Of a stretch of DNA of 64,000 bases, positions 1,648-35,239 are shown one piece after another. A program made the translations under genes and the position numbers. The notes beneath the pieces are model-generated. The model searched no databases, was not told the origin of the DNA, and saw only the letters and a program-made list of their open reading frames with translations. Numbering within the stretch: position 1 is the first letter of the stretch; every line of letters begins with the position of its first letter. Source of the stretch: an alpha proteobacterium AAP38 (GTDB lineage: Bacteria; Pseudomonadota; Alphaproteobacteria; Azospirillales; Azospirillaceae); NCBI GenBank assembly GCA_001296005.1, contig LJHR01000035.1:62001-126000 (forward strand). The letters are read 5' to 3'.

Positions 1648-1665
1648 TGTCATTCATAGCATAAC
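1648..1665 (+). repeat. left terminal inverted repeat
   Basis: TGTCATTCATAGCATAAC matches the right end (35239 to 35222, minus strand) at TGTC, at three inner positions and over the final CATAAC with no gaps. The pattern TGT..GAT..CATAA also resembles the terminal TnsB sites of other Tn7-like elements. Confidence 0.8.
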
Positions 1666-1718
1666 GAGCCTCGCTTGCTACCCCAAGCCCTTGATTTTGT
1701 AAAGGGGGGATTTAGAGT

Positions 1719-1730
1719 TGATACCATAAC
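1719..1730 (+). repeat. left inner TnsB-site-like repeat
   Basis: TGATACCATAAC; its partner near the right end is TGACACCATAAC on the minus strand (11 of 12 identical). It shares CATAAC with the terminal repeat, so it is probably a second TnsB-binding site. Confidence 0.65.
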
Positions 1731-1778
1731 AATACAAAAATTAAAACATAATATTAACTCGACTAGATTAAAAAAATA

Positions 1779-1800
1779 GCCCGAAACTGATCGTTCGGGC
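1779..1800 (-). terminator. intrinsic terminator of the tns operon
   Basis: GCCCGAA and TTCGGGC form a 7-bp stem with an 8-base loop; on the minus strand it is followed by TATTTTTTT. It sits 27 bases past the tniQ stop and would shield the complex I gene from tns transcription. Confidence 0.85.
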
Positions 1801-1826
1801 CAGTTAAATTGTAATAATATTACACA

Positions 1827-3677
1827 TTAAATCATCTGCAATTCCATTCTGGAATAAAATGGCTGCGACCCATTATCTGATTGGATTACGGGTTTCACCC
1901 CCTGCCGCAGGTAGTTTTCTCGAATATATTCATATCCAACTTCCTTCGCTGCACCGCCGAGCGTGACATACTCCCTATCGAAGCATTCCAAATCGTCGCG
2001 GTGGATGAAAATGCATCTGCGTTTGGTAACCGGGTTCGGCATCACCCGATGCGCCAACAGGCCCCTGAAAACCAATGACCTTGTCGTCCCGGCTCCCCAT
2101 GCCATCCGTTCCCTGACTTCATCGATCGTCAAGTATGGCCATGGCTCGTTCTCAGCTTCCACCTCGACAAGCATCCGGCGCACCTCGGCAGGATCGACGA
2201 CAACTGGAAGATCGCCATGGTGGACCTCAGACTTGGCAACCCTTGCCAGCCGACCTTCCACCACAAGCCTTACCACGCGAGCATATGCCGACCGGCAAAG
2301 CTTGGAGGCTATGGAGGGAGGTGTCATCCCTGGCAAAGCCGCCTCCATGGTCACCTGTCTGTCCACCTTCTCGATAAACCCGTTCAGATCAGCCTCCGTG
2401 AAGGCAGTTCGGAACGACTTCCCCTCTCCTCCCTTGAAGAATGGCACCAGCACCTCGTCGTCCATCAGATCCTGGAGCCGTTGCCTTGTGATCCGCAGGC
2501 GTTTGGCTGCATCCTTCGGGATCACCAGGGAGCGAAGCGGCTCCAGAAGCGGATCGACGTGCTCTACCGGGAAAACGATGCGCTCGTTCTGCAGTGCCTT
2601 GTTCGCATCGTTCACCAAACCCCGCATTTCCAGATAGTTGCGCATGCGCAAAGCCGTGACCCCGATATGTCGAGCAGCCGCGGCGATTGACCAGATCCTG
2701 CGTTGACCGACGGATACCCCGAAGATGGTGTCGGACGGCGCCAACGGCAATGTCGACAACATTTCCTCGCGGATCACGTCCCGAACTGGATCGAGGCCCT
2801 TCTCCTCGATCACCTCCAGCAGCCAATCATAGAGAACGCCGAAGAGGCTCGATCCGCCAGGGTCGCCGCTGCTATCCCAGAAGGCCGACATGGTAACGCG
2901 AACGAAATCCCGAAACGCCTCCTCACCCTTGATAAGGATATCGCAACCGACACCGGTCGCCTGCGCCGCAGCTTCCTCGTCAAGCTCCCGGACGGAGGCT
3001 TTCGCCCCGTAGATTGAGACTGCCCCGACTACCTCGCACAGCCTCACGGCGAGATACATCGGCACGCCATCAAGAAGCCAGGGCTTGGAGGAATTCTCCA
3101 GTCCATACAATCGGCTGAACAGGTACCGTTCCAAGCTGGTAGGCTGTCTGGCGGCTCCCTGCCCAGGATTTCCGCGGGTCTGTTCAACATATGGTGCAAT
3201 AGCCGATGTGAAATCGGCGATCACGGCGGACTTCCCCGGCTTGCCGCAAGAGATCAACCCGCAGCCATGGACCGGACAAGACCGGAACCAGGACAGCTGC
3301 CAATGGACACGTTGGAACGGAGCCGCTTTATTAAGGTCCGACCAGGCTGAGACATCCTCCGACAGGCATTCCGGGCAGAACCGGACATGATTCCGGCGCG
3401 AAGCAGCAGCGGTCACGATTTGCCCGCAGACCCGAAAAAGACGCTCGCCGACCTTCGTGAAGGAACGACCACGCAGGACTTCGACATCCACTCCCGACAC
3501 ATCTGCCAGGCCGACAAGCGCCTTCTCGTCTCCGTCCACCAATCCTGACAGCGTGAAGCCCATGTCCGAGCTGAACTCCCGCGCGTTGCACCAGTTCCAC
3601 GCAGCTAGGCGGGAACAGTAGCTGGTCGGTGTCTCGTGGGGATTCAGGGGAAGGGTCCTGGATAGGGTTCCGCTCAT
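1827..3677 (-). CDS. tniQ: TniQ/TnsD-family target-selection protein
   Basis: A 616-residue TniQ-family protein, the target selector of Tn7-like transposition that binds an attachment site and recruits TnsC. The N-terminal TniQ zinc finger is visible as CPEC (C101, C104) and SCPVHG (C134, H137). The long C-terminal part looks like a row of winged-helix/excisionase-like modules, as in TnsD proteins that read a fixed chromosomal site; short CRISPR-linked TniQ proteins lack this. The start is set by an ATGA overlap with the tnsC stop (ATG at 3677); the longer open frame upstream lies inside tnsC. The likely site read is the 3' end of tRNA-Pro at the right edge. Last gene of the operon, followed by a terminator. 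Confidence 0.9.
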   Translation of the reverse strand: MSGTLSRTLPLNPHETPTSYCSRLAAWNWCNAREFSSDMGFTLSGLVDGDEKALVGLADVSGVDVEVLRGRSFTKVGERLFRVCGQIVTAAASRRNHVRFCPECLSEDVSAWSDLNKAAPFQRVHWQLSWFRSCPVHGCGLISCGKPGKSAVIADFTSAIAPYVEQTRGNPGQGAARQPTSLERYLFSRLYGLENSSKPWLLDGVPMYLAVRLCEVVGAVSIYGAKASVRELDEEAAAQATGVGCDILIKGEEAFRDFVRVTMSAFWDSSGDPGGSSLFGVLYDWLLEVIEEKGLDPVRDVIREEMLSTLPLAPSDTIFGVSVGQRRIWSIAAAARHIGVTALRMRNYLEMRGLVNDANKALQNERIVFPVEHVDPLLEPLRSLVIPKDAAKRLRITRQRLQDLMDDEVLVPFFKGGEGKSFRTAFTEADLNGFIEKVDRQVTMEAALPGMTPPSIASKLCRSAYARVVRLVVEGRLARVAKSEVHHGDLPVVVDPAEVRRMLVEVEAENEPWPYLTIDEVRERMAWGAGTTRSLVFRGLLAHRVMPNPVTKRRCIFIHRDDLECFDREYVTLGGAAKEVGYEYIRENYLRQGVKPVIQSDNGSQPFYSRMELQMI

Positions 3678-4684
3678 TTCGCACCCCGGCGCTTGCGTGA
3701 GGAAGCCTGGAGAGGTGCCGCATCGAGGCGCGACACGGACGGGACGATCCGATCCCAATCAGATACCAGGAAGATGTTGTCTTCGGGAGAGCAGTCCCGC
3801 TCGTCGACGTAAGCCTGCCCGAAATCCGCCATGCCGACCATGGCGCCCGACCCGGCGCGGGAATACGCGGCAAGGATGGCCCTCCTGACAAGCACGATCG
3901 CGGACCCCAGGCCACGTTCGGACGCCACGATCAGGCGATGGGCGAACTCATCCGTCTGGATTTCGCTGCCAGCGACCATGGAGGCATGGTTCACAACGAT
4001 CCCATGGATGATGTCCTGAACCAGTACCGCGTCGTGGGGAAACGCCAGCGGGGCGAAGCGGAAAGTCTGGCTGCGGCGTTCGACCTGGCGATCACCGCAG
4101 ATGAAGGACGAAAGCACGGGCAGGCCGCTCAGGATCAGGCTCAAGGGCCAATCCCGTTGCTGCATGATGCTCTTGAAGGTGTCGCGCAGCCTGGTCAGTT
4201 CAAAATCGCTGCCGCGGCCCATTGTATGGTGGGCTTCATCCAGCCAGATGAACCTGACACCACGCTCCTTAACGTGGCGCCGAACCTTTTCCCAGATGAT
4301 GTGGTCCGGGAGGTCCCGGATCAGGGGGTAGCCGAGGCTTTCGAGGATTGTCCTGCCCAGCTGCTTGAGCGTGCAGGGCGATGGGGCGGTCAGCCGTAGG
4401 AAGTTGCCACTGTCTAGGCCGGTGATGCGCGGGACCGCCTTTTCGATCGTCCAGGTCTTGCCAGCTCCTGACGTGCCAATGACGGCCAACATCCGCCCTT
4501 CGGGGTGCTGACCGGCTGCTGCGGCATGGGTTTCGTCGACGAAGTCCTGAAGGTCCTGGCGGAAACGATCGTCGCGGTCCGTCTTGATGTATTTATCAGA
4601 GATCTGCGACGACAATGCCGCTCGGTTTGCAAACAGCGAAACAGACGGCAACGTCGACGGGGTGGAAGTCATCTGGGTGTCCAT
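3674..4684 (-). CDS. tnsC: TnsC/TniB-type AAA+ transposition regulator
   Basis: A 336-residue AAA+ ATPase that links target selection by TniQ to the TnsAB transposase. Walker A is GTSGAGKT (residues 70-77) and Walker B is FIWLDEAHH (145-153), typical of the TniB/TnsC family. Two starts are possible: TTG at 4690, which overlaps the tnsB stop, and ATG at 4684. GGAGG lies 7 bases before the ATG but only 1 base before the TTG, so the ATG is chosen. The length is shorter than Tn7 TnsC (about 555 residues) and closer to the compact TnsC/TniB of other Tn7-like elements. The stop overlaps the tniQ start. Confidence 0.92.
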   Translation of the reverse strand: MDTQMTSTPSTLPSVSLFANRAALSSQISDKYIKTDRDDRFRQDLQDFVDETHAAAAGQHPEGRMLAVIGTSGAGKTWTIEKAVPRITGLDSGNFLRLTAPSPCTLKQLGRTILESLGYPLIRDLPDHIIWEKVRRHVKERGVRFIWLDEAHHTMGRGSDFELTRLRDTFKSIMQQRDWPLSLILSGLPVLSSFICGDRQVERRSQTFRFAPLAFPHDAVLVQDIIHGIVVNHASMVAGSEIQTDEFAHRLIVASERGLGSAIVLVRRAILAAYSRAGSGAMVGMADFGQAYVDERDCSPEDNIFLVSDWDRIVPSVSRLDAAPLQASSRKRRGAK

Positions 4685-4686
4685 GT

Positions 4687-6867
4687 TCAATCCTCCGTAA
4701 TAAAGCTGGTTGATCCGATGCGGGCCCTGCCCGCCGTCGGCGTGGTGGGGGCGGGCGCCGAAAATGCCTCGTGCCGCAATTCAATGCTTTCGGTGGGCAT
4801 ATCCTCCGTCTCCATGCCGGGTAGTTCCCTGGCCCGGCCGCCCCGCGCCTTGAAGTCGAACTTCGTGAACAGGCGCTTTTCCATCCGCTCCAGGTCGTCG
4901 GCGCCAAGGATGGCACTACCCAGTTCGGCAGCATTTGCTGCCTCGTCCGCCTGCTCCCGGATGGACCGGATGGCATCGGCGACGATGTGCGACGACAGGT
5001 GTTCCATGTCCGCATTGCGCCGACCGAGGTCCTTTGCGGCGGTGGTCCATTCCCACCAGGTGACGCCATCGAGCGCCAAACCGTCCATGGCCGGCGGAAC
5101 GCTAATCCAACCATCCGGCGTCTGGACGGAGACCCTGCCGAGGTCCCAGCGGCCAACTTTTACGGTCACTTCGCCCAGTCCTGCCTTGCGACGCAGTTCC
5201 TGGAGTTCCCGGGACTGGTAGTGGATCCCCAGGATGCGGACGCCCTGGTTGGAGATCCGACGCTGGCACGGAATGCCGAAGATGCACCGACGGGTATCGT
5301 CATCTGGAGGCGGCAGCACCCCGAACTGGGCGACCAGCCGATTCCAGGTCTGGAGCGGCGTTGCCCCTGCCAGTTCAGCATGCGGGCGATTATGATAGGC
5401 ATCGACTACATAGCGGACGAGGGTGCGGTTAAGGGTTTCCAAGTTGACACTGGCATGGCCTTCGGCGTCGTAGTCCCCCCTCTCCACGGGATTGGAAAAG
5501 GTCTGGCCCTGGAAGTACCGGGCGAACTCACGCTGGAATGTCCCGAAGACCCGTTCAATCCGACCGCGCAGTTCGGGGACACCCGCCGGGGGGTAATGGC
5601 CACCTGCCCCAAGTGCGGCGATGGCCAGTTTTACCTGCTCCGCCCGGAAGGACGGGCCATTGTCCATGCTGACCGTCTCCGGAATGCCGTGCATGTTCCA
5701 CGGTGACCGACAGCCGACCGCACCGGCGATTTCGGACTTGTCACGGACAACCATCTCCAGCGTGGTAACTGCGCTCGCTGCCGACGGTGCCGTCGTGAAG
5801 CGCAGGGCCAGGATGCAGCGCGTCGCACAGTCGATTGCGACCGATACCCAGACCCGACCGATTTCACCGATCTGCTCCCGCTGCTCGTCAGACAGCGATT
5901 CCCAGATGCCGGACTTTGAGAGCAATACCTGGAGAGACACCTGCCATTCGTCCATCTCCACGACTTCAAGGGGACGCACTACAGGGTCGCGGCCATAGAT
6001 AATGTTGAACTTCTGGCGTGCAGCTTCCGCACCGTACCGACCGGCTGTTACCGTGAATGGATCCAGGGTTCGGTTCAGATGCTTCCAGAATGTCTGGTAA
6101 CTGATGCTTTCGATCGGCTCCAGGTTCGCGGCCAACCGTTCCTTGTTCTTCTCTTCCAGGGCCATCCGATAGTCGCGGTAGATCATGACCTTGCTGTCAC
6201 GGTTCGCGCTGGCATAGCGCCCGACATGCTGGTTCACCAAGGCCCAGGCATCGCCCGACTTCCGCGGGTTCCTGTTGCCGCGCCCCTTCGTATTTGAACA
6301 AAGCGCGACGGCGACGAATCCGCCGTCGCGGAAGTCGCGCAGCCAACGGCGCAGGGTGGATGGCGTAGGAGGAAGCGAGACATTGACCTGAACTTCGCAT
6401 GAAGCCCGGCGGCCGGGACGACTGCCGGAACTGATCGTCCGGGTTGCCGTTACCTCGTCTCCCAAGATCTGAGCATGGATTTCGGCAATGGCGATCTTCA
6501 TCGAAGCGTCCGAGCGAGTGACGTCCTTCCGCTTCGCCTCCATTTCCATGAACATCTCGCAGTAGGCCTTGCGGCGCAGGATCCGGCGCTGTTCGTCCTG
6601 AGGAAGGTCGAACAGCGCCACGTCCCGGCCCTTGGCACGGCGCGCCGCCGTTTCGGGAAGGTAGAACCCCTGCTTCACGACAAGGGTGCCGGCCTGGGCG
6701 AAGCGGGCGATCTCGCCATGAGGGAGGAACTCGCGGACGTCGTTGTCCTCGACGCGGGCGAGATGGTGACCTCGATCGCTGGTGGAAACCGGCCGGTAGG
6801 CCTGACCGTTCAGCACGACCTGGTCATGCTTGGCGAGCCGGTACTGCACTGAATGCTGCATCATCAT
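4687..6867 (-). CDS. tnsB: TnsB-type DDE transposase
   Basis: A 726-residue DDE transposase that binds the element ends, cleaves 3' strands and joins them to the target. The catalytic triad is D306 in VEMDEW, D402 in MDNGPSF and E438 in GRIERVF; D402 and E438 are separated by 35 residues, the D,D35E spacing of the Mu/TnsB/retroviral integrase family. N-terminal helix-turn-helix segments (around 95-260) should bind the end repeats. The start lies in a run of three ATG codons with AAGGA upstream; the third (6861) has the best spacing. Twelve bases downstream of tnsA and translationally linked to tnsC. Confidence 0.93.
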   Translation of the reverse strand: MMMQHSVQYRLAKHDQVVLNGQAYRPVSTSDRGHHLARVEDNDVREFLPHGEIARFAQAGTLVVKQGFYLPETAARRAKGRDVALFDLPQDEQRRILRRKAYCEMFMEMEAKRKDVTRSDASMKIAIAEIHAQILGDEVTATRTISSGSRPGRRASCEVQVNVSLPPTPSTLRRWLRDFRDGGFVAVALCSNTKGRGNRNPRKSGDAWALVNQHVGRYASANRDSKVMIYRDYRMALEEKNKERLAANLEPIESISYQTFWKHLNRTLDPFTVTAGRYGAEAARQKFNIIYGRDPVVRPLEVVEMDEWQVSLQVLLSKSGIWESLSDEQREQIGEIGRVWVSVAIDCATRCILALRFTTAPSAASAVTTLEMVVRDKSEIAGAVGCRSPWNMHGIPETVSMDNGPSFRAEQVKLAIAALGAGGHYPPAGVPELRGRIERVFGTFQREFARYFQGQTFSNPVERGDYDAEGHASVNLETLNRTLVRYVVDAYHNRPHAELAGATPLQTWNRLVAQFGVLPPPDDDTRRCIFGIPCQRRISNQGVRILGIHYQSRELQELRRKAGLGEVTVKVGRWDLGRVSVQTPDGWISVPPAMDGLALDGVTWWEWTTAAKDLGRRNADMEHLSSHIVADAIRSIREQADEAANAAELGSAILGADDLERMEKRLFTKFDFKARGGRARELPGMETEDMPTESIELRHEAFSAPAPTTPTAGRARIGSTSFITED

Positions 6868-6879: not shown

Positions 6880-7680
6880 TCAGGCAGCCATGGCCGGACG
6901 ACGGAGGCGGACCATCGCCAGGTCGCCGATATGCGTGCCGTTGGCGAGTTCGAGCCCACCCTCGTCGATCAGGTTGACGACGGCGTTCAGGGCGCGGGCG
7001 GGCGGGAGGCAGGACATCGCAACCAAGCTGCGGATCGGCACGGCCCCTCGGAGACCGGCGGCTACCTGCGACGTCGCGCGCACGTCCTCATGGTTCCGGC
7101 AGGCCCGTGCCCTGAGGATGTGGCGGGCGTCAGCGACCTTCGCCCGCGGAACATGCTGTTCGGTGCAGATCTCGAAGCGGTCGGCGAAGCCGTCGCCCGT
7201 CTGCCGGCGGATAAGGGCGATGGTGTCCTCAATCCCGGAGGACCCGACCTTGGCGAGCGGCTTGACGGCATATGCGATCCGCGCGCCGGACACGGTCTCG
7301 ACCAGGAAGTCGAACGTGTGCCGCGCAGCACGGCCGTCCCGCCGGACATAGGCGACGGCGGGCGGCTGGTCATGGACGGCGACGATGCGCCGGTCCGTCA
7401 GCAACAGGTATGCAAGGTCGCGCTCAAGGGCGCTTTCATAGACGACCGCCCTGCCCGACACGGGATCATGGATCGATCCGCGGCATGAGAAGCGGCTGTT
7501 GGCTGCCGGCTTCCTCGACGCGATGGACGGGAGCGGCGGATTCCATACCCCGTCGGCGGTCTTGCCAACGGCCGGCTGGTCAGGACGGAGGGCATTGTCC
7601 TGATCGGAGGGCCTGATCGAGAAGAGGTCCAGGCCTGCACGCCTGGCATGGAGGTGTTGGGAAACGAGGTACTGGCGCAT
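6880..7680 (-). CDS. tnsA: TnsA-like endonuclease subunit
   Basis: A 266-residue protein placed directly before tnsB, matching Tn7 TnsA (273 residues) in size and position. TnsA cuts the 5' strands so the element moves by cut-and-paste. The nuclease core reads YESALERD (E82/E86), HTFDF (D124) and AYAVK (K140). In Tn7 TnsA the last motif is Q-V-K; here the position two before the lysine is alanine (A138), so one metal-binding residue may be lost or supplied elsewhere. The ATG at 7680 has GAGG 5 bases upstream; a longer frame from a TTG at 7752 has no ribosome site. The family call rests mainly on context and this motif set. Confidence 0.8.
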   Translation of the reverse strand: MRQYLVSQHLHARRAGLDLFSIRPSDQDNALRPDQPAVGKTADGVWNPPLPSIASRKPAANSRFSCRGSIHDPVSGRAVVYESALERDLAYLLLTDRRIVAVHDQPPAVAYVRRDGRAARHTFDFLVETVSGARIAYAVKPLAKVGSSGIEDTIALIRRQTGDGFADRFEICTEQHVPRAKVADARHILRARACRNHEDVRATSQVAAGLRGAVPIRSLVAMSCLPPARALNAVVNLIDEGGLELANGTHIGDLAMVRLRRPAMAA

Positions 7681-7890
7681 GATCGCCTCATCGGGCTGCC
7701 GGCAACCGTATAGCGGTGTGAACCGGCCGAACTCGGGGGGCCATCGGGGCAAAGGGAGGGCGGCGCCGTCAGAAACGACGGCGTTCGGAAACCCAGACCC
7801 CGACGGTGGCGGGCAGGCAGAGCAACGCTCAGCCTATGAGGCGCACCGGACGGTGGTTAGTGGAGTGGATGGTGGTGAGGTGGTTGGCGT

Positions 7891-7913
7891 GGGCCGTGCT
7901 CATTGCACGGCCC
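7891..7913 (-). other. hairpin with the stop codon in its loop
   Basis: GGGCCGTGC and GCACGGCCC form a perfect 9-bp stem whose 5-base loop contains the TGA of the FtsH-like gene. No T tract follows, so it is more likely an mRNA processing or attenuation element between this gene and tnsA than a terminator. Confidence 0.5.
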
Positions 7914-9975
7914 CAGCGTCATAGGACATCGAGGCGACGATCTCCTCAACCTCGGCCCCGGTCAGGGTGCCACGGTCGAGCAGCAGGTCGGCAACGGCAT
8001 CCAGGGCGGACCGGTTGCGGTGGAGAAGGTCCTGGGCCGCCTTGTACTGTAACGCAAGCTCGGTCTCGACCTGGGCGGCAAGGCCTGGATTCTGGCGCAG
8101 GACAGCCGCGACATTCTGAGTGTGGACCTCGCCCTTCCAGGCCAGACCGTCCCCGAAGCCATAGCTGCCAAGCATCTCGGCCGCGAGGGCGGTGGCCTTG
8201 GCCAGGTCGCTGTCGGCAGGTCCGCCGGAACCGTTCGCCGGCGCCCCGTAGACGATCTCCTCGCCGGCGCGGCCGGCGAGCGTCGTGCGAATGATCGCCC
8301 TCATCGATGCGCCGGTTTCCATGCCGGACGGCCGGAATCGGGCACCGGAGCGGCCGGTGCTGACAGTGACGGTCATCAGCTGGCCGGGCAGTTCGACGGC
8401 ACCGGCAATGGCATGGGCCGCCTCATGGATGGCAATCCTGCGCTGATGGTGGATCGGCAAATCCAGCGCGGGAGAAACCTGTGCGAGGAGATCCGCGACC
8501 GTCATCTGGCGGCCTGCCCGGCGGGCGAGGCGCTTGGCGTTCCGAACCCAGAACTCGACATCGGCACCAGTCCCGCCCAGGCCTGCCGCCGCGACCTCAG
8601 AGAGGTCTGCATCCGGCAAATGGCGTTGGCCGAGGTGCTCCCTCAGGATGCCCGCCAAAGCGATTTCGTTCGGCGGGGAAACGTGGATGACGCGGTCGAA
8701 ACGGCCGGGACGGAGAAAGGCAGGGTCGATATTGAGCGTATTCGCCACCCCCAGGATGATGACACGGTGTTTAACCGCTTCGTCGATCCGCTGCAGGGCC
8801 TCGTTGACGACCTGGATGCTATACTCCCTGTTCCGACCTTCCATTTTATCGCGGATGCCGAATGAGTCAGCTTCCTCCAAAAGGAACAGGCAGCCGCCGA
8901 GAGCTTGCGCCCGCTCAAAGCTTTCGCGCATCGCCTTGAACATATGGCCTTGGTGGCCGGCTGACTGCCATTGTCCATAGGATCCGATCACCAGCGGGAG
9001 CCCTGCGCTTCTCGCCAGGCGCGCCGCAAAGGTGCTCTTGCCGGTACCTGGCGGTCCGACGAGCATGCATCCTTTGTCAATTTCATCAGCGGACAGGATG
9101 CCGGCGTTGTAGTCGGCCAAATCCTCGATCAGGTTGCGGCCCCACTCCACTGCCTCGTCCATGCCGCTAAGCCCGTCCAGGGTGGGGCCGTCGACGGCCG
9201 CCGTGCGGACCTTCGCCTCTGCCAAGCGCACCAAGCGCTTGATCCACTGGTCGGCATCTTCGTCGTAACGGTGGGCGAAGCGGAGGTCATTCGGGGTCAG
9301 GAGACGGCACAGCCAATCCGGGACGGAAACATCCGGCCGAACGCCGAACGCAGCCGCTGCCGCGTCAGCCAGCGTGGCAGCGTCGACCAAGGGGATCGAA
9401 ACCTGATGATCGGCCCCGTTTCGGACGATCTCGGGAGCATTGGCGTCAGGCGGAACCAGTACGAGAACGCCCTTTCCCTCATCCACGGCCCTGATGATGC
9501 CAAGCTCAACGGAGATGTCGCCCAGGGAGGTCCTGCCGAGGTCGTCGATGATCAACCATCTGTCATGCACCGACTGCGACTGGAAAAATTCAGCAGGCAC
9601 CTCGACGTCATCGTCAGGAATGTCGTCCTGACCTTTTTGCAACTCCGCAGCGTCGGCCTCCATTTCCCGTTGGATAAGTGCATTCGCATGAGTACGAAAC
9701 GCCTCGGCAATCGCCGGAACCCAGGCCCGTGAAGCAACGTTCAGGACAACGACCTGCCCTGGCTGTTCGAGGGCGGCAGCCGCGTCCGGCTTGCTGGAGA
9801 GAGCGCGATCCAACAGGACGGATGCCGTGGCGGCGTATGGGGTAGGACGATCAGTATGATCGGGTGCGACTGCATCGGCAGCCTTCTCGGCGTCGAGATG
9901 CTCAACGAACTGCTTGTGGTAAGCTTTTGATAAGGCCGACAGTGTGGTGGGCGGCCGATCAAGCTGCGAAGACAT
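7900..9975 (-). CDS. FtsH-like AAA+ ATPase with M41 metallopeptidase domain
   Basis: A 691-residue protein with an AAA+ module and a zinc peptidase module in FtsH order. Walker A is GPPGTGKS (307-314), the Walker B region is FLLEEAD (364-370), with arginine-finger type LRPGRFDR (421-428). The peptidase site is HEAAH (517-521), and the downstream PADSDLAKATALA segment resembles the FtsH third-ligand helix. Unlike FtsH there is no N-terminal transmembrane segment; residues 75-215 look like a second, degenerate P-loop domain. The ATG at 9975 has AAGGCAGG upstream; a TTG at 9996 is less likely. It is first in line with tnsABC-tniQ on the same strand, about 220 bases before tnsA. A role in controlling transposition is inference; it could also be independent cargo. 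Confidence 0.85.
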   Translation of the reverse strand: MSSQLDRPPTTLSALSKAYHKQFVEHLDAEKAADAVAPDHTDRPTPYAATASVLLDRALSSKPDAAAALEQPGQVVVLNVASRAWVPAIAEAFRTHANALIQREMEADAAELQKGQDDIPDDDVEVPAEFFQSQSVHDRWLIIDDLGRTSLGDISVELGIIRAVDEGKGVLVLVPPDANAPEIVRNGADHQVSIPLVDAATLADAAAAAFGVRPDVSVPDWLCRLLTPNDLRFAHRYDEDADQWIKRLVRLAEAKVRTAAVDGPTLDGLSGMDEAVEWGRNLIEDLADYNAGILSADEIDKGCMLVGPPGTGKSTFAARLARSAGLPLVIGSYGQWQSAGHQGHMFKAMRESFERAQALGGCLFLLEEADSFGIRDKMEGRNREYSIQVVNEALQRIDEAVKHRVIILGVANTLNIDPAFLRPGRFDRVIHVSPPNEIALAGILREHLGQRHLPDADLSEVAAAGLGGTGADVEFWVRNAKRLARRAGRQMTVADLLAQVSPALDLPIHHQRRIAIHEAAHAIAGAVELPGQLMTVTVSTGRSGARFRPSGMETGASMRAIIRTTLAGRAGEEIVYGAPANGSGGPADSDLAKATALAAEMLGSYGFGDGLAWKGEVHTQNVAAVLRQNPGLAAQVETELALQYKAAQDLLHRNRSALDAVADLLLDRGTLTGAEVEEIVASMSYDAGAVQ

Positions 9976-10457
9976 GGTGATACCTGCCTTGTCCAAAGTC
10001 GTCGGACCTTCGGCACAGAAGTGCGAAGGCGGCTACGCTTTGCGCAGGTCACAAGGACGGATGTCAGGAAACGACCGTGTTCCTTGCGCCTACGCGGCGC
10101 AGCATATCTTTCCCGACGCCAGGGACATGGCCGGAGCCATCGTGGCGTTCACGTTCAGGTGGGTGATATGTGAGGAAACGTTTGTCATAGTCATATAATG
10201 GCTTGGGCCGGGTAGGATGTCAATCCCAGAATTCCGGAGCGGTTGAAAAACTCGGTCCGCCTTGCCCTGCGCCAGCTTCCAGGGCTGCCAGGAGAGGTGC
10301 CCTGGCATCGAGTGACCCTACATACGCGGCCGGACAGGGCATCGCATCGTAAACGGCTACGATGGCCGGCGAAGGGATCGGGCGGTGAAGCAGTTCACCA
10401 TCCAATATTGACTCTATAGGATAACATATAAGAAGAAACACAATCATGGAGAGTCCA
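9976..10457. other. divergent intergenic region between tns and RHH genes
   Basis: About 480 bases between the divergent FtsH-like and ribbon-helix-helix genes, presumably holding both promoters. The part next to 10380-10445 is AT-rich (TTGACT at 10408, then an AT-rich stretch) but spacing to a -10 box is poor, so no promoter is claimed. No open frame here looks coding. Confidence 0.4.
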
Positions 10458-11186: not shown

Positions 11187-12059
11187 ATGCGCCGCCTGCC
11201 CGCCCTTCTCGCCGCCATCCTGGCCGCTACGTTGCCGGTCGCCGCACTGGCGAAGGATGTTAAAGTTGCCACCTGGAACATGGGTTGGCTGACACTGAGG
11301 GCCGGCGAGATCAACGGGCCGAACGCCGACCCCAAACGGGCAATCTACCAACGCACGGACGAGGACTTCGCCAGGTTGCGCGGCTACGCGGCCAAGCTCG
11401 ACGCGGATATCGTCGCCCTACAGGAGGTCGACACCGTCGAGGCGGCTGCCAAGGTCTTCGATCCGAACGAGTACACGGTCATCCTGGGTGACGAAACGGA
11501 TTTCCAGCGCGCGGGTTGGGCCATCCGCAAATCGGTCAAGTTCACACGCATGCCGGACCTGGCCGCGTTGGACCTGCTGGACGGTCAGCCGAGGAGCCTC
11601 CGCAAAGGCGTCGAGGTCGTGTTCCATCTGCCCGGCGGCGACCTGCGCGCACTGGCCGTCCATCTGAAAAGTGGCTGCTTCTCTCCGAAAAGCCAGAATG
11701 ACGCCTGTCCTGTCATCGCCGAGCAGATGCCCATCCTGTCGAAATGGATCGACGCGCGGCAAGCCGAGGGAACATCGTTGCTGGTCGCTGGGGACTTCAA
11801 CCGACGGCTGCGCGACGAGGACCCGCTCTGGAAGGTGCTGGACAATGGCCCGTCGCCGCTGAAGCTGGCCACGGCGGGCAAGGCTAACCATTGCTGGGCG
11901 GGCGAGTATCCGGAATTCATCGACCAGATCATCCTTGGCGGCCCCGTCGTGCGCCGCGCCAAGGAGGGTTCCTTCGGGGTCCTGGTCTATACCGAAACAT
12001 CCAGGGACGATAAGAAGCGGGTCAGCGACCACTGCCCTGTTTCCATCGAGATCCGATGA
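11187..12059 (+). CDS. secreted endonuclease/exonuclease/phosphatase-fold protein
   Basis: A 290-residue protein with a clear Sec signal peptide (MRRLPALLAAILAATLPVAALA) and an endonuclease/exonuclease/phosphatase (DNase I-like) fold. Metal and catalytic motifs appear in family order: ATWNMGW near the mature N-terminus, DIVALQEVD (about residue 75), LVAGDFNRRL (about 202) and the terminal SDHCP (about 282). These enzymes cut phosphodiesters in nucleic acids or lipids; the substrate cannot be told. AGGAG lies 7 bases before the ATG. The stop overlaps the next gene (ATGA). A second protein of the same fold is encoded at 15226. Confidence 0.88.
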   Translation: MRRLPALLAAILAATLPVAALAKDVKVATWNMGWLTLRAGEINGPNADPKRAIYQRTDEDFARLRGYAAKLDADIVALQEVDTVEAAAKVFDPNEYTVILGDETDFQRAGWAIRKSVKFTRMPDLAALDLLDGQPRSLRKGVEVVFHLPGGDLRALAVHLKSGCFSPKSQNDACPVIAEQMPILSKWIDARQAEGTSLLVAGDFNRRLRDEDPLWKVLDNGPSPLKLATAGKANHCWAGEYPEFIDQIILGGPVVRRAKEGSFGVLVYTETSRDDKKRVSDHCPVSIEIR

Positions 12060-23350: not shown

Positions 23351-23352
23351 GG

Positions 23353-24519: not shown

Positions 24520-24531
24520 CGTTCGAAATCC

Positions 24532-25299: not shown

Positions 25300-25318
25300 G
25301 TCGGCCTGCGCTTTGCGG

Positions 25319-27868: not shown

Positions 27869-30124
27869 CTACAATTCAACATCTTGCTCAATAATCGGTT
27901 CAATAACGGCAGTTTCCACCAGCTGACCCATGCCGTTAACGAACTCCTGGTAGACACGATGCTCTGCATCGAAAGATTCCAACATTACAACGAAAGTCGC
28001 TGTCACGGGCCAATCTTCCGTGCCACCTGTATATAGATACCGATCCCGCCAGAAGAGTCGCGCTCTTAGGCGCAGTTCGTTTTGGCCAAGGGTCTTCCCT
28101 CGCGGGAACTGTTGTGAGTACACACGGATCGGCTGCCATTTAGCGTCATGCGTACGCGCCACGCCCTCTGGCGTTTCCAGTTCCATTGAACCGACAAGCC
28201 TGTCCCATTTGCCTGCATTGGTCCGGAACTGGACGGTGGCTTCCAACCGTGTGGACGCATAGTTGGTTCCCATTGCATGCGTAACAGGAGCGAGAATGGC
28301 GACCAACTTGACCCTGCCCTTGAATTTGCCACCGCGGGTCAGGGAAGGAGGTAGCTGGATACCTGACCAATAGTAGTTCCGCTTCTCGACAATCGCCTGC
28401 TGCCAACAGAAAATTACGGCATTGTCGCTGCTACGCCAAGGTTTGATGGGCGAGATCGGGCTGCCGTAGCCGGTACGGTAATGGAAATCCTCCTGGTCTG
28501 CCGCGTTGATGAGCAGTGCCTTCACCAAGTCAGGTGTTGGCTGCCGCAGGTTGGCCCAGGTATGCGCTGCAATCCGGCTAACCAAGGGCGCCGCAAAGCT
28601 GGACGCCGTGCTACGACGACCGCCCAGAAGGCGCTGACGTGAAAACCAGCTCAGTTCGGGCTTCAACATGCCCTCGGGACCGAGCCCTACCCGCGAGATT
28701 GGGCAAGGGTTGCCGACGCGCCCAACCTCATCGTGAAGCCGTCCGCTCACGGTAATAGCCGCCTCAGCGTCGGCCGGTGGGGCAACTCTTTCCTCAGTTC
28801 CTTCAGAACGGTTGCCGGAGGAAATCACAAACACCACCCCGTGCTTCCGAGCAAGCTGCGACATTTGATGACCGAACTCGCTCACCCGCATACGGTCGCA
28901 GGCTGCCGGCACATTCGCTGAGATGTTCCACACTTTGGTATCGGGGTGCGCGGCGATGACGCGATCCAGATACGCCAGAAGCCCCGGCATGTCCCATGCG
29001 CCAACGAAATCCGGTCGAGGAACGACGGGAACATCACCCAGCCGAACCGGGTAACTCTCGATGTCCAGGTGATTATTCCAACCCTCGGCTTCCCGCAGGA
29101 CACCAGCGACACAGTTCGCATGAGGGTGATCGAGGACAGGTGTGGGCAAAAAGTTGGGAGCCCGCCATACGATATCCGCCTCATAGCGACGTGCGGTGAA
29201 GCCTCCGTCGATCGTTCCAACAATGGGAGCCGTTGGCGGAAGCGGGTTTTCGGGATCAGGTTCTGGTTCCCGCCCGTCACCGGGCGGCTTTCCGACCATC
29301 GGCGCGATCGGATCCCATCTGACGATCGTTCCGCTCCCGATCAATCTTGAAAGCTCTGCCTGCTGAGCAACCGCGGCCACAAGTCGTGGATAGTTACCAT
29401 TCCGCATACTGGCTTTGGCCAGATCAAGTAGGCGAGCCCGAGCCGCACCGACGGCAACCGTAGAACTCCCAGTGACGGCCGGTAGATCGGGTATCTCATC
29501 TACCCTGCCTGACATTAGAAGCGAAGCGCTTGGGTACGACGATACGATCAGGCCAAGACCAGATGCTGCTAGGCGGTCAATTACTTCACCGCGCGCGCCC
29601 CAATCGACAAACGGTGCCAAATAAGCAATGAACCGCCGTTGCCCACCGTCATCAGTTGCAGCTGTCTGCCATGTGGGAGCAATATCTTGCGCCGCGACTG
29701 CTTCCTGCAACGGGATGATTGCTGCGATCCTGGAAATATCCACTCTCTGGGCGACAGAGCTGGGATTGCGGATTCGATCCAACAATCCCCTCCGGCAGGA
29801 TAGAGGCACCTCGACCGCATAGCCGCCGTTCCAAGGGGCTGCGAAGGCGATCCCCAAATCACGACCTAGCAGATCCTTAGGTGTCCAAGAGGTTGCAAGA
29901 GAGCCGTCGGCCATCTTGACCCAGAAAAGCGCTCGACCAGCAAACCAGCGCACGCGCCCGGAGTTCTCGTCCAGCAGTTCGGAAAAAGCAGCGAAAAGCG
30001 CGCGTGCCCTGACCAAATATTCAGGCTGGATGTCCTCTTCAGACTTTCCCCGTCCCTCGACGCCTTCCCGAGTTGCGACCACCTTGAGCCGCAGAATTGG
30101 ATTGTCCGGCACTGCCCACCTCAT
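27869..30124 (-). CDS. ietS: subtilisin-like serine protease of an IetAS pair
   Basis: A 751-residue S8 family protease. The triad is visible as GTIDGG (Asp), HPHANCVAGVL (His) and STASSFAAP (Ser); the oxyanion region is FVISSGNRSEG. About 300 N-terminal residues precede the catalytic domain and no signal peptide is seen, so it acts in the cytoplasm. It overlaps the upstream AAA ATPase gene by 86 bases. This gene pair matches IetA/IetS: first described as a toxin-antitoxin stability locus on an Agrobacterium Ti plasmid and later reported as an antiphage system, with the protease as toxin. Start MRWAVPDNPILRLKVV at 30124 looks genuine though its ribosome site is weak. Confidence 0.87.
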   Translation of the reverse strand: MRWAVPDNPILRLKVVATREGVEGRGKSEEDIQPEYLVRARALFAAFSELLDENSGRVRWFAGRALFWVKMADGSLATSWTPKDLLGRDLGIAFAAPWNGGYAVEVPLSCRRGLLDRIRNPSSVAQRVDISRIAAIIPLQEAVAAQDIAPTWQTAATDDGGQRRFIAYLAPFVDWGARGEVIDRLAASGLGLIVSSYPSASLLMSGRVDEIPDLPAVTGSSTVAVGAARARLLDLAKASMRNGNYPRLVAAVAQQAELSRLIGSGTIVRWDPIAPMVGKPPGDGREPEPDPENPLPPTAPIVGTIDGGFTARRYEADIVWRAPNFLPTPVLDHPHANCVAGVLREAEGWNNHLDIESYPVRLGDVPVVPRPDFVGAWDMPGLLAYLDRVIAAHPDTKVWNISANVPAACDRMRVSEFGHQMSQLARKHGVVFVISSGNRSEGTEERVAPPADAEAAITVSGRLHDEVGRVGNPCPISRVGLGPEGMLKPELSWFSRQRLLGGRRSTASSFAAPLVSRIAAHTWANLRQPTPDLVKALLINAADQEDFHYRTGYGSPISPIKPWRSSDNAVIFCWQQAIVEKRNYYWSGIQLPPSLTRGGKFKGRVKLVAILAPVTHAMGTNYASTRLEATVQFRTNAGKWDRLVGSMELETPEGVARTHDAKWQPIRVYSQQFPRGKTLGQNELRLRARLFWRDRYLYTGGTEDWPVTATFVVMLESFDAEHRVYQEFVNGMGQLVETAVIEPIIEQDVEL

Positions 30125-31286
30125 GTTGGACGACTTGCCGACCCGACTTCAAGCTTTTCTCGGCGCCCTGTCTCGTGATTTGAAAGAGAGCACCAACATC
30201 ACCTGAAGCCAGACTATGCAGTTCCGCGACCTTTCTCCTGAGGTCCCGTAGCCGCTCCGCCGGCAAATCACCCATACGTGGTAATATAAACTTTCCGCTA
30301 GTACAACTGACTACCGCCTCCACTACTGTTGAAAGTTGGACAGGCTCGCCGCTTATTAACGACGTTCGGCGGGCCGCGAGTGCGACTTCGCGTATGTCAG
30401 AGCATGACATGCTATCGGATATGCGAGCTAAAACCTCCGCCGCCTTCGCCTTTCCAAGATCGAGATAGTAACTCCACAGCTCACGCCGCAAATCAGCCCC
30501 CGGTAGTCTCATATCGAGACGGTATGGGAAGCGGCGCCATACGGCGGGATCGAGCAGTTGCGGGTGATTTGTCGCCGCAATGACGACGCAACGATGGTCT
30601 AGCCGGTCGAGCGCTTGAAGCAGGGCATTCACTACGCGCTTGAGTTCCCCGACGTCCCGGGCATCGTCACGTTGCTTGGCGATTGCATCGAACTCATCAA
30701 GAAACAGAACACCACCCGATCCCTGTACGAAGTCGAGCAGCATACGGACGTTCTTGGCCGTATCGCCGAGCAGCGATGAGACGACCGCATCCAAACGCGC
30801 AACGTAGAACGGGCGGTTCAGTCGGGCAGCAATATATCCAGCGGTCAACGTCTTTCCGGTACCAGGCGGGCCTGACAGGATCAAGTTCAGTCTTGTGCCA
30901 AGCCCTGCCTGTGCAAGCCTGTCCGCAGCAGCGGCTTCCGCAAGGAAGCGAGTGAGCACGACCTCGTGCTCTTCCTCCATTAGCAGCGGTTCCTTGGGCC
31001 ACGGCAGCTCTTCAATGAGGGTTGTACGGCTTTTCGAATCGCTGGGCAATTCAACGGGGCGAGAGCGGGCCGCCCCGCGACCATTGAGGACTGCATGGAG
31101 GCGTTGCTGCCAGCTTCCCGAGTTATCACCTGCTACTCGTGAGACAAGGGCAGCGCCGAGCCTGCGAACGGAAGAAAAGTCAGAATCCAAACCCGCCGAC
31201 ACCAACTCCAAGACCATAGCTGGTGTTTCTTCTTCACGCCTGGGCATCTGAATAACATCAGATGCGAGAATCCCGCCACGGCCCAT
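30039..31286 (-). CDS. ietA: AAA+ ATPase of an IetAS pair
   Basis: A 415-residue AAA+ ATPase. Walker A SGPPGTGKT, Walker B VLFLDEFDA and the sensor/arginine region VIAATNHPQLLDPAVWRRF are intact and resemble classical AAA (FtsH/ClpX-like) unfoldases. The N-terminal 115 residues form a separate helical domain. Start ATG 31286 has GGAGGG 7 bases upstream. It is the first gene of the ietAS operon and should restrain or direct the subtilase. The C-terminal 30 residues are Ser/Gly/Arg-rich and overlap the ietS start; this end may be unstructured. Confidence 0.87.
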   Translation of the reverse strand: MGRGGILASDVIQMPRREEETPAMVLELVSAGLDSDFSSVRRLGAALVSRVAGDNSGSWQQRLHAVLNGRGAARSRPVELPSDSKSRTTLIEELPWPKEPLLMEEEHEVVLTRFLAEAAAADRLAQAGLGTRLNLILSGPPGTGKTLTAGYIAARLNRPFYVARLDAVVSSLLGDTAKNVRMLLDFVQGSGGVLFLDEFDAIAKQRDDARDVGELKRVVNALLQALDRLDHRCVVIAATNHPQLLDPAVWRRFPYRLDMRLPGADLRRELWSYYLDLGKAKAAEVLARISDSMSCSDIREVALAARRTSLISGEPVQLSTVVEAVVSCTSGKFILPRMGDLPAERLRDLRRKVAELHSLASGDVGALFQITRQGAEKSLKSGRQVVQHEVGSAGQSNSAAQGGRNSGRRRGTGKV

Positions 31287-31608
31287 GACACGCCCTCCAC
31301 TTTACCTGTATTCGCACAATACCAATCAACTTCAAGGCAACCTCGCAACATAGAGGTTTACATTTTTTTTCAAGATTTGCAACAATTAAAACTATAATTC
31401 ATAATTCTAAATCTTCAAAGTAATTAGAATTTATATGAGCAAGCAACTACGTATCCGATGCGATCAACATGCTGTCATGCCTAATTATCATCATTAAGGC
31501 AGTCCATAATGTTGGACGTTCCGTTTGCATGACCACCTTGTATCCATTCGATGAGAACCTCTGCTGGTTCCGAGATAGCGGCTTTGAGGGCCGACTAGAA
31601 CCGCTACG
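31287..31608. other. AT-rich intergenic region upstream of ietA
   Basis: About 320 bases, AT-rich in the middle (31350-31430), containing T and A tracts but no frame with a ribosome site longer than 30 codons. It presumably carries the ietA promoter. Nothing else recognised. Confidence 0.4.
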
Positions 31609-32298: not shown

Positions 32299-32586
32299 GG
32301 ATCGCCCCCAGTATCGTCGTCGATGTGGCCGAGGCCCCAGCCAGTTACATGGTGGGACCGGGCGTGCGGAATAGGGTCGTCGGTACATACGCCGTCAGCG
32401 CCGGCGGAATCGTGGGCTTCGCGGGCGATGTACCCAATTCCCGCCTTTGCCGATACCGCCCTACCTGGGCAGGCGCGCCCCTCTTGGCGGTTCGCGCGCC
32501 GAAAACAAAACGCAATGAGGCCGGTTACAGACTTTACTGCGGTCGAGGGAGCAGGGAAGCGCCCCATTTCCAACCAGGCAACCCAT

Positions 32587-34947
32587 ATGTCCCTGCGTCT
32601 TCACCGGATCATTACCGACTACGTGCGCCTTCGGCTTGAACCCATCATGCCGCCGCGCGAGGTCATGGCCCTGCGCGACCACCTGCTGGGGCTGGCGCGG
32701 GAAAGGCGCTGGCCAGCCAGGTCGGGCGGCGGCTTTGATTTCCAGGCCATCGCCGCGGCGGCCGGCATCCCACCTTCCACGCTGCTGGACACCAGGGTGC
32801 AGTTGAAGCCCCTTCTGGACGCCATCGTGCGGGAACTCCCCCGCCCTGCCGTCTCGAAGCCGAAGCGGGCCGTCCGGAAGGTGGCGCGCAAGCTGGCCCA
32901 GTCCATTCCGAAGCCGAAGCCCTTGGCCAACCCAACGAAAGAGCCGCCGAGGGCCAAGACGCAGTCCGTGCCGCCACCCCCGGCCAGGAAGCGCGGGCGG
33001 CCGAGGAAGGATGCCCCGGTTGTCGCGCCGGTGGCCAAGGCCCGGCGCCGGGGGCGCCAGCCCGCCCCGGTGGTCCGGTTCCCCCCGGCGCTGTGGCCGG
33101 AGGCACGCACCTTCGCCGACTTCCACCGGGAACTAGACCAGCAAGCGCGGCGGCACGGCGACAACAACCATGTCCTCCAGCGGGCCCTCGCCGCCGTCGG
33201 CATCGCGGTCAACGTCTCCACGATCCGCAATTGGCGAAGCGGAATTCGCCACCCCCGGACCGTCCGCAGCATGCAGGCGATCGCCGTCCTTGAGCAGCGT
33301 TACCGGCTACCGGCCGGGCATTTGTCGGGCCGCCTGCCCCACCCCGCCCGAGCCATCGCCGGCAACAACGTCAACGGGATCAGCAACGCCGAGCACCGGC
33401 GGCTGGCCTGGCATCTGCCAGACGACTTCACCACCCGACCGCCGAGGGAACGGGAAGAGATCCTGCGATGGGTGCGGGAGGTGATCGTGCGCGGCTCCAC
33501 CGCCTACAGGGCATACCAGGCGGCCGCCATGAAGACGCCCTTCGCGCTCCGGCTGCCCCATGCCAGTGCCATGGTGGACGCGCGCTGGAAAGACCAGGGG
33601 GGCCGGCGTTCGGAAGGTCCGAGGCTTGACGTCGCCACCATGGCCGACGAGGAGATGGACCGCGAGATCGCCGACCTGGTCGGGTTCAAGAGTTCCACCC
33701 TGACGCCCTTCGGGTACCAGCGGTCCGGTGCATGGGGCCGGGAGATGGCCCTGCAGCAGATCGAGCACCTGGGCCTGATGTTCGGGGCGCTGGCCGCTCC
33801 CGCCGCCGGGCCGGTCCGCGGCCTCGGTGCCGACAAGGGCAGCCTGTGCTTGGCGCTGCTCGCCTTCCCCCAGACCTGGGGCTGGTACGTGGACTGGCGG
33901 GAGCGCCGGCGTGGCTTCTATACCAGTTGGGAGAGTGGCGCGCTGTCGGTGGCGGCCGCATTGACGCGCCCCGAGACGGGCTGGCTGTGGCAGAACCCAG
34001 GCCTGGCCCGGCGCCTGCAGCCCATACCAGGCCTGCTGGCCCGGGACGATATCGACCGGGCACTGGCAGACTGGCGAGCCGCGTGCCAAGCCGCGCACCG
34101 GTACGCCGTCAGCCGGGGCAAGGAGGTGAAGCGGGTAGCCAAGGTTCACCGAGACCCGTTCGAGCCGATCCTGCCGGTACTGGAGGCGGACAGCCCACTG
34201 ACCGAGTACAAGAAGATCGCTGATGAGATCGTTAGGTTGATGCCGAGGGCTGACCGCTACCCCGTCGCGGCGGCCGAAGCGACGCGGGCGCTGCTGATGA
34301 TCCGCCTGGGGTTACACCTGGGCGTGAGGCAGAAGAACCTGCGCCAGCTGCTCTGGAAGCCCAGGGGTGCCATGCCCTCGACGGCACGGCACCTCAGCGA
34401 CCTCCGCCGGGGCGAGCTGCGCTGGAACAGCCGCGAGGGCGGCTGGGAGGTCTACATCCCAGTGGAAGCCTTTAAGAACGCCGGCTCGTCCTATTTTCGT
34501 GGCCAGGCTTTCCACCTGCGGCTACCCGACCTGCACGGGCTGTACGACCTGATCTCCGGCTACCTGGACCGGCACCGACCGCTGCTGCTGGGCACCGCCG
34601 CCGATCCGGGAACGTTCTTCGTGAAGACGGCGAAGCGGACCTCGACCGATGCTGAGTATGGACAGACCACCTTCTACGAAGCCTGGCGCCTGATCATCCA
34701 GCGGTACGGAATCCACAATCCCTTCACCAAGCGCGGTGCCATCGTGGGGCTGCTGCCCCATGGCCCGCACAACGTCCGCGACGTGCTGGCGACCCACATC
34801 CTGAAGAAGACAGGTTCGTACGAGCAGGCCAGCTACGCCATCCAGGATTCGCCGGAGACGGTCCAGGAGCATTACGGGCGGTTCCTGCCCGGGGACAAGG
34901 CAGCGCTTGCGGCCAAGGTGCTGAACGAGGTGTGGGAGGCGGCGTAG
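32587..34947 (+). CDS. large tyrosine recombinase with AT-hook and HTH-like N-terminus
   Basis: A 786-residue protein. The last 250 residues form a tyrosine recombinase domain: GLHLGVRQKNLRQLL (first Arg), VEAFKNAGSS (Lys), HGPHNVRDVLATH (H-x-x-R) and QEHYGRFLPG (Tyr nucleophile). The N-terminal half is unlike phage integrases: Lys/Pro-rich linker with KRGRPRKD, an AT-hook, then an HTH-like block (VNVSTIRNWRSGIRHP). Start chosen at ATG 32587 (MSLRLHRIITDYVR); an in-frame ATG at 32515 is possible and the frame stays open further upstream. It occupies the tRNA-proximal end of the Tn7-like element. Possible roles are resolution, secondary integration, or an older integrative element captured as cargo. 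Confidence 0.85.
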   Translation: MSLRLHRIITDYVRLRLEPIMPPREVMALRDHLLGLARERRWPARSGGGFDFQAIAAAAGIPPSTLLDTRVQLKPLLDAIVRELPRPAVSKPKRAVRKVARKLAQSIPKPKPLANPTKEPPRAKTQSVPPPPARKRGRPRKDAPVVAPVAKARRRGRQPAPVVRFPPALWPEARTFADFHRELDQQARRHGDNNHVLQRALAAVGIAVNVSTIRNWRSGIRHPRTVRSMQAIAVLEQRYRLPAGHLSGRLPHPARAIAGNNVNGISNAEHRRLAWHLPDDFTTRPPREREEILRWVREVIVRGSTAYRAYQAAAMKTPFALRLPHASAMVDARWKDQGGRRSEGPRLDVATMADEEMDREIADLVGFKSSTLTPFGYQRSGAWGREMALQQIEHLGLMFGALAAPAAGPVRGLGADKGSLCLALLAFPQTWGWYVDWRERRRGFYTSWESGALSVAAALTRPETGWLWQNPGLARRLQPIPGLLARDDIDRALADWRAACQAAHRYAVSRGKEVKRVAKVHRDPFEPILPVLEADSPLTEYKKIADEIVRLMPRADRYPVAAAEATRALLMIRLGLHLGVRQKNLRQLLWKPRGAMPSTARHLSDLRRGELRWNSREGGWEVYIPVEAFKNAGSSYFRGQAFHLRLPDLHGLYDLISGYLDRHRPLLLGTAADPGTFFVKTAKRTSTDAEYGQTTFYEAWRLIIQRYGIHNPFTKRGAIVGLLPHGPHNVRDVLATHILKKTGSYEQASYAIQDSPETVQEHYGRFLPGDKAALAAKVLNEVWEAA

Positions 34948-34962
34948 GGGGTAGACGGCACC

Positions 34963-34993
34963 TTGCGGCGAATAGCAACTCTATTCGCCGCAA
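34963..34993. repeat. 13-bp perfect hairpin after the recombinase
   Basis: TTGCGGCGAATAG and CTATTCGCCGCAA are perfect inverted copies around CAACT, 15 bases past the recombinase stop. No T tract follows, so termination alone is doubtful; it may be the crossover or binding site of the recombinase. Confidence 0.6.
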
Positions 34994-35118
34994 ACGATGC
35001 GGTGATTGTCGTCCTTGCACGTATCGCGCTGGGCTAATCCCAAGGGTCACACCGAGAAGCAACCATACCTGGGAAGACCAGCAGTCCGAACCTAGCGTAC
35101 GTCCGCAAGTCGCAGAGA

Positions 35119-35148
35119 GCTTAGAAGGGGCGAAAAGTTTCGCCTAAG
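35119..35148. repeat. inverted repeat near the right end
   Basis: GGCGAAA and TTTCGCC flank a 2-base centre at 35129-35144, with outer arms CTTA/TAAG. It lies about 90 bases inside the right transposon end. Could be part of the TnsB-site region or a terminator without a clear T tract. Confidence 0.4.
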
Positions 35149-35178
35149 ATTATCAACAACTTAGCTGAATGCATAAAC

Positions 35179-35190
35179 GTTATGGTGTCA
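35179..35190 (-). repeat. right inner TnsB-site-like repeat
   Basis: TGACACCATAAC on the minus strand, 49 bases inside the right tip; the left partner at 1719 is TGATACCATAAC. Confidence 0.65.
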
Positions 35191-35221
35191 GGATGGCATA
35201 CCATAGCCCTTCCAGGGAAAA

Positions 35222-35239
35222 GTTATGCCATTATCGACA
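35222..35239 (-). repeat. right terminal inverted repeat
   Basis: TGTCGATAATGGCATAAC on the minus strand, ending ACA on the plus strand at 35239. Same length and CATAAC offset as the left terminal repeat. Confidence 0.8.

Follow-up and report, generated by a model that had tools for sequence, protein, structure and literature searches.

A complete Tn7-like transposon beside tRNA-Pro and a probable block exchange that sets it apart from its sister at tRNA-Lys

TnsD/TniQ-directed insertion downstream of tRNA genes is described in the available part of PMC11406308 for the Tn7-like branch that gave rise to the type I-B2 and I-D CRISPR-associated transposons (CASTs), as is exchange of the TniQ partner in this tRNA-targeting branch. 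Sources available in part also place tRNA attachment sites for TnsD/TniQ, and TniQ exchange, in other Tn7-like branches (PMC11406308, PMC10293859, PMC8649781). Here we describe a 33,592-base insert at positions 1648-35239 of a 64,000-nucleotide stretch from the alpha proteobacterium AAP38 (contig LJHR01000035.1; the whole stretch is called the window), which lies between the gene for the complex I subunit NDUS4 and a tRNA-Pro(TGG) gene. We consider it likely, at a probability of roughly 0.85, that the insert is a complete Tn7-like transposon and that a block exchange relative to a sister element in Azospirillum sp. RU38E (G002), a genome of the same genus, accounts for their different addresses, tRNA-Pro and tRNA-Lys.

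Borders, empty target site and core genes

The initial annotation of the window had proposed TGT/ACA termini with matching 18-base ends, a second inverted pair and the flanks GTTGA and ATTGA as a 5-base duplication. The features of the borders are:

1317-1622, minus strand: gene for the complex I subunit NDUS4, on the far side of the insertion
1643-1647: left copy of the target duplication, GTTGA, based on the single GTTGA in four empty sites
1648-1730, plus strand: left end, with the terminal repeat (1648-1665) and a second repeat resembling a TnsB site (1719-1730)
35171-35239, minus strand: right end, with the terminal repeat (35222-35239) and internal TnsB-site-like repeats
35240-35244: right copy of the target duplication, ATTGA, with one mismatch
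35258-35334, minus strand: intact tRNA-Pro(TGG) gene at a distance of 18 bases from the right end, probably the gene used for attachment

The left terminus, TGTCATTCATAGCATAAC at 1648, and the right terminus, TGTCGATAATGGCATAAC (reverse complement, read inwards) at 35239, were found where predicted and are identical at 14 of 18 bases; the second inverted pair is likewise present, as TGATACCATAAC at 1719-1730 and TGACACCATAAC on the minus strand at 35179-35190. TnsB-site-like motifs are repeated at both TGT/ACA ends, the motif having been chosen after the ends were seen. The count of 15 such motifs, against a mean of 3.0 in shuffles, is illustrative only, given that the motif was picked from these very ends and that one of the eight end stretches (the left end of G002) was misplaced. 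A scan of the window for TGT/ACA pairs separated by 10-60 kb, in which 14 or more of the 18 bases agree and the 5-base duplication has no more than one mismatch, gave three equally good pairs, the 1648/35239 pair among them, and the termini alone are therefore not beyond chance.

The borders are established instead by comparison with empty sites. We joined both flanks with one GTTGA and searched 59 genomes with this query, which matched across the junction in four genomes of the same genus (G005, 99%; G006, 98%; G007, 91%; G009, 91%) and, at lower identity, in other genomes. A single GTTGA is present in all four of these empty sites; this is the arrangement, tRNA-Pro to complex I gene with one RTTGA, that the initial annotation had put forward as its check. 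The interval 1648-35239 is one Tn7-like element, with the borders proposed. Both flanks of the predicted duplication are in place, but with one mismatch between them; the right copy has probably mutated since insertion, because the four empty sites read GTTGA.

Toward the left end runs a series of five genes, all on the minus strand, in which the reading frames of tnsB and tnsC, and of tnsC and tniQ, overlap:

7900-9996, minus strand: AAA+ ATPase joined to an M41 (FtsH-type) zinc peptidase (the AAA-M41 gene), first gene of the tns run
6880-7752, minus strand: tnsA endonuclease
4687-6867, minus strand: tnsB, DDE transposase
4687-4810, minus strand: 3′ end of tnsB, the last ~40 codons, with the change point of identity to the sister at 4810
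3674-4690, minus strand: tnsC (AAA/TniB)
1827-3758 (by open reading frame, ORF), minus strand: tniQ/tnsD-like target selector with a TniQ domain; a Met codon near 3677 overlaps the tnsC stop
1777-1802, minus strand: hairpin resembling an intrinsic terminator, after tniQ

The four genes expected inside the element, tnsA, tnsB, tnsC and tniQ, are all present, and an AAA+ TnsC shares one gene run with a TniQ-domain protein, as in Tn7-like elements. The TnsB profile matches TnsB structures, and D306, D402 and E438 are invariant in five aligned sequences, in keeping with a DDE transposase. Weak matches together with its position in the run suggest that the next gene encodes TnsA: its Pfam TnsA-like match (20.8 bits) is under the 26.5-bit cut-off, its NCBIfam TnsA-like match (3e-9) is far under the family cut-off, and a sequence comparison with the PDB gave no match. 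E110 and D148, which together with K164 presumably have catalytic roles, are invariant, and K164 is found in eight of nine aligned sequences. A loss of these residues, considered as a way to explain a resolvase, is unsupported, since all three are kept. TniQ is 643 amino acids long by ORF; its C-terminal half has a weak helix-turn-helix match just below cut-off, and the secondary structure of its predicted model, judged by eye, suggests repeated helix-turn-helix-like units there. The description of the element as intact refers to the presence of its ends and core genes.

Promoter-like sites offer weak evidence on the operon. One (10/12 matches) lies ~200 bases ahead of the AAA-M41 gene and a second (9/12), which could serve tnsA, lies inside that gene on the same strand, with 0.6 expected by chance; none was found just inside the left end. 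The insert, which begins 25 bases ahead of the NDUS4 start codon, parts NDUS4 from tRNA-Pro by 33.6 kb.

Identity step between sister elements at different addresses

Relatives were sought by a TnsB search of 99 genomes and then with a profile, run at E ≤ 1e-90 against 82 genomes of the family and 385 of the class. TnsB at least 40% identical was found in four elements: that of the window and those of G002, G063 and G059. The G002 sister comprises 39,243 bases between exact copies of TGATC, and its right end lies 17 bases from tRNA-Lys, a site that is empty in G010 (95% match, one TGATT). No right end was found at the window genome's own tRNA-Lys site, and a 14-base sequence of the right end did not occur in the stretch fetched there. 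The G063 element is 17.7 kb long with AATTT on both sides, and its right end lies 18 bases past the stop codon of nrdJ (B12-dependent ribonucleotide reductase; gene named by eye); alignment to two genomes of the same genus resumes exactly at this right end. The G059 element (22.3 kb, AGACG/AGACG) has phage-like surroundings that hold a tRNA-Sec-like fragment (by eye only). In three of the four elements, therefore, the right end falls 17-18 bases past the 3′ end of a conserved gene (tRNA-Pro 18, tRNA-Lys 17, nrdJ 18; not G059), and the 5-base duplication, which has one mismatch in the window, is exact in the three relatives.

Between the window element and G002, DNA identity is ~92% from 4810 rightwards (computed to ~9147), a stretch covering tnsB, tnsA and most of the upstream AAA-M41 gene, and 60% from 4810 to the left end. 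The low-identity block thus takes in the left end together with tniQ, tnsC and the C-terminal ~40 residues of TnsB, while the right ends are ~85-90% identical. Protein identity is 89% for AAA-M41, 93% for TnsA, 92% for TnsB, 65% for TnsC and 47% for TniQ, and identity at four-fold sites is 75.9, 87.4, 80.6, 39.3 and 40.5%, respectively. Such an abrupt drop at silent sites argues for recombination with another element, and not only for faster change of the proteins. According to the available part of PMC9371665, contact of Tn7 TnsB with TnsC requires its last 22 residues, and in a type V-K element TnsC is bound by a C-terminal hook of 15 residues. The portion of TnsB that would be expected to fit TnsC has thus changed along with TnsC itself, TniQ and the left end, and the address is different as well. 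The simplest reading of this pattern is that a recombinational swap of the targeting cassette would have changed the tRNA address.

In the mechanism that we propose, TnsA and TnsB would cut and join the TGT/ACA ends, presumably by cut-and-paste. The long C-terminal part of TniQ, as the putative DNA reader, probably recognizes the 3′ part of tRNA-Pro, and TniQ with TnsC would set the right end at a distance of 18 bases past the tRNA gene, with duplication of 5 bases. A swapped block of left end, tniQ, tnsC and TnsB tail would then re-address the element, with TnsA, the body of TnsB, the AAA-M41 gene and the right end retained. We infer the link between block and address from a single pair of elements.

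Several observations weigh against this reading. Only two elements share nearly the same transposase, and the correlated change of target and block is seen once. The tnsC and tniQ genes of both elements are still relatives, and no donor with the window's tniQ-tnsC beside another tnsB was found, which leaves room for a hotspot of divergence. The recombinase-like protein described below also differs between the window and G002. The predicted structure of TniQ is middling (predicted local distance difference test, pLDDT, 64), and Foldseek gave no fold match for it at E ≤ 0.001. In the other two elements, the support is less clean: the G063 flanks are 1.1 and 1.4 kb apart in two relatives, with other sequence between them and no clean empty site, and in G059 no tRNA gene was called nearby, such that not every member lies at the 3′ end of a gene.

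The alternative that survives best, although we regard it as unlikely, is that no block was exchanged and that selection for new targets sped up the divergence of tniQ, tnsC, the TnsB tail and the left end. Rapid evolution is expected of target selectors, and the blocks of both sisters can still be aligned, at 47-65% protein identity. However, selection on the proteins does not predict that four-fold sites should fall from 76-87% to ~40% across the boundary, nor that identity should change abruptly at 4810.

A second alternative concerns two features near the right end:

32584-34947 (by ORF), plus strand: gene for a tyrosine-recombinase-like protein, named from a residue pattern only (R, K, HxxR, Y)
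34963-34993: inverted repeat with perfectly matching 13-base arms around a 5-base spacer, downstream of the recombinase-like gene

The recombinase-like protein is at most 787 residues long, and its reading frame stops 292 bases short of the right end. The residues R, K, HxxR and Y follow one another in recombinase-like order, which we take to be the tyrosine recombinase pattern; family library, sequence and structure searches lent the name no support, neither the protein nor its profile matched the PDB by sequence, and its predicted structure (pLDDT 39) is not usable. In G002 the inverted repeat is kept with two arm positions unpaired, and only a 352-residue frame is present, which is 96% identical to the C-terminal part, the N-terminal part being missing. 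A stand-alone homologue, 76% identical, is found in G009, with no tns genes in the fetched 20 kb, and the G063 and G059 stretches gave no match.

It is clearly less probable still that this protein, and not TniQ, selects the target in the manner of TnsF. The C-terminal 352 residues barely change between elements with different tRNA targets and are therefore unlikely to choose them, although the missing N-terminal part, by which the proteins of the two elements do differ, leaves some room for the idea, as do the location of the gene next to the right end and its recombinase-type residues. The copy without tns genes in G009 and the lack of a match in G063 and G059 also argue against such a role, as does the length of TniQ, which is long here and short in Tn6022 (369 amino acids; PMC10293859, available in part).

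The window genome (G000) has a related recombinase-like gene near tRNA-Leu(TAA), at the end of contig C3 (L142, 8952-10017), with 98% identity across 206 residues. A TGT stands 17 bases past this tRNA, CCATAA has the offset that it shows in the right end of the window element, and the contig breaks off within the recombinase-like gene. The flank expected from G005 for the other end is on contig C21, but the fetched C21 stretch holds no tns or recombinase-like gene. The sequence TGTGACGG after tRNA-Leu also occurs in G006, where ~38 kb on that side gave no match to the tns or recombinase-like queries. A second Tn7-like element at tRNA-Leu is only a lead.

It is highly improbable that the recombinase-like protein moves the element as an island that integrates at tRNA genes, with the tns genes as cargo: its tRNA neighbour, the recombinase-like gene near the tRNA end and the related gene near tRNA-Leu would fit such an island, but what is duplicated at the flanks is 5 bases, next to TGT/ACA ends, and not a tRNA 3′ end, the insertion lies 18 bases beyond the tRNA, three relatives follow the same end rule, and the empty site is clean with a single 5-base target.

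If the block exchange is correct, a nearly identical transposase at two tRNA addresses, with a sharp boundary between shared and differing parts, amounts to a natural experiment on how Tn7-like elements set their address. It predicts that the left end, TniQ, TnsC and the TnsB tail could be moved as one cassette to re-aim the transposase, which would be useful for site-directed insertion tools.

The AAA-M41 gene and the cargo

The AAA-M41 gene, to which the initial annotation did not refer, is a puzzling companion of this clade's transposition genes. It lies directly ahead of tnsA, on the same strand, in all four of the closest elements, and its divergence among them is about equal to that of TnsB. 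All four proteins retain Walker A. At the first Walker B acid, G063 has Asp and the other three have Glu, and the zinc-protease motif of G059 reads HKAGH, not HExxH. The idea that it is a universal gene of the lineage was rejected, as it was directly ahead of tnsA in none of 14 more distant loci (G418, two in G462, L110, L111, L113 and L121-L128; tnsA was undetected in L127), a selection made up of 10 out of 53 plasmid records that match TnsB, one of 47 that match AAA-M41 (L113) and three loci of two genomes. Homologues do occur ~11 kb away in L110, ~18 kb away in L127 and ~3.6 kb ahead of tnsA in L113, and others, including those in G006, G009 and an A. oryzae plasmid, have no tns match in the fetched stretch. 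The plain reading is that, in this clade, a stand-alone gene was recruited to a position at the start of the tns run, where it may aid transposition or may be defence-like cargo.

For phage Mu, the transposition complex is unfolded or remodelled by the host's ClpX. One could speculate, and we do so with considerable doubt, that the AAA+ zinc-protease-type machine of this clade is a fifth core gene that unfolds or remodels the transposition complex, such that disassembly would be encoded by the transposon itself. HKAGH in G059 with Walker A kept is what would be expected if unfolding, and not cutting, matters. Within the open literature library, no paper was found that names Tn7-like elements together with an FtsH-type AAA protease, and M41 did not occur among the 20 listed of 96 matches.

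Among the distant loci, tnsA-tnsB end ~1.4-1.65 kb from an annotated B12-dependent ribonucleotide reductase gene in L122 and L128 (plasmid records of Paracoccus seriniphilus and Rhodobacter sp. CZR27). A gene of this kind also borders the G063 element, where it is located on the opposite side of the tns genes. The Tn7-like locus of Ensifer adhaerens (L111, 18927-22327) has two tandem tniQ-like matches.

The cargo comprises:

11187-12059, plus strand: endonuclease/exonuclease/phosphatase-family protein
12775-14853, minus strand: RTX-repeat protein with a weak metzincin match
15226-16254, minus strand: second endonuclease/exonuclease/phosphatase-family protein
17092-20109, minus strand: single 1005-residue protein in which a caspase domain is joined to a Hel308/HamB-like helicase
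22319-26812, minus strand: four-gene run with a weakly ZorA-like protein (23353-24519)
27869-31286, minus strand: IetAS-like pair of a subtilase (27869-30124) and an AAA protein (30039-31286)

The defence-like modules noted in the initial annotation can be recognized in the IetAS-like pair, the caspase-helicase fusion and the weakly ZorA-like protein. No Pfam family above cut-off was found in the four-gene run. Three of its four genes occur in the same order in G462 (Mesorhizobium), at 27-33% identity and ~40 kb from a Tn7-like tns run, and it is possibly an unnamed defence module.

Relation to described Tn7-like systems

The Tn7 traits compared here are in part general background. Our element resembles Tn7 in its TnsA/TnsB, AAA+ TnsC, TniQ-domain selector with a C-terminal DNA-binding part, 5-base duplication and TGT/ACA ends, as well as in insertion at a fixed distance past the 3′ end of a conserved gene with the right end toward that gene (these Tn7 traits partly from the available part of PMC11406308). 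It differs in its address, which is glmS for Tn7, tRNA-Pro here and tRNA-Lys or nrdJ in the relatives, and in the location of the tns genes at the end away from the target. In Tn7 these genes begin close to the end that faces the target. A further difference is the AAA-M41 gene ahead of tnsA, and no tnsE match was obtained among the window ORFs scanned.

Insertion downstream of a tRNA gene, here probably directed by TniQ, is shared with the I-B2/I-D CAST branch, for which exchange of TniQ partners is described. In comparison with that branch the window element has separate tnsA and tnsB genes. The array and Cas effector that define a CAST were not found: no repeats resembling a CRISPR array were found, only repeats inside the RTX gene, its only RNA family matches are two tRNAs, and no Cas families were present among the ORFs scanned with Pfam, a weak Cas3-helicase match of the caspase-helicase protein (E 0.004) being its helicase domain. 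With Tn6022 (TnsF, comM), the element has in common a Tn7-like organization and a tyrosine-recombinase-related protein. It departs from the short TniQ, TnsF and comM of that type, as judged without a TnsF profile, in its 643-residue TniQ, in the constancy of most of the conserved recombinase-like part across targets and in a site that is tRNA-Pro, not comM. Attachment at tRNA genes and exchange of TniQ were thus already known; what this locus adds is a sister pair with a probable block exchange of defined boundary, and an extra gene ahead of tnsA.

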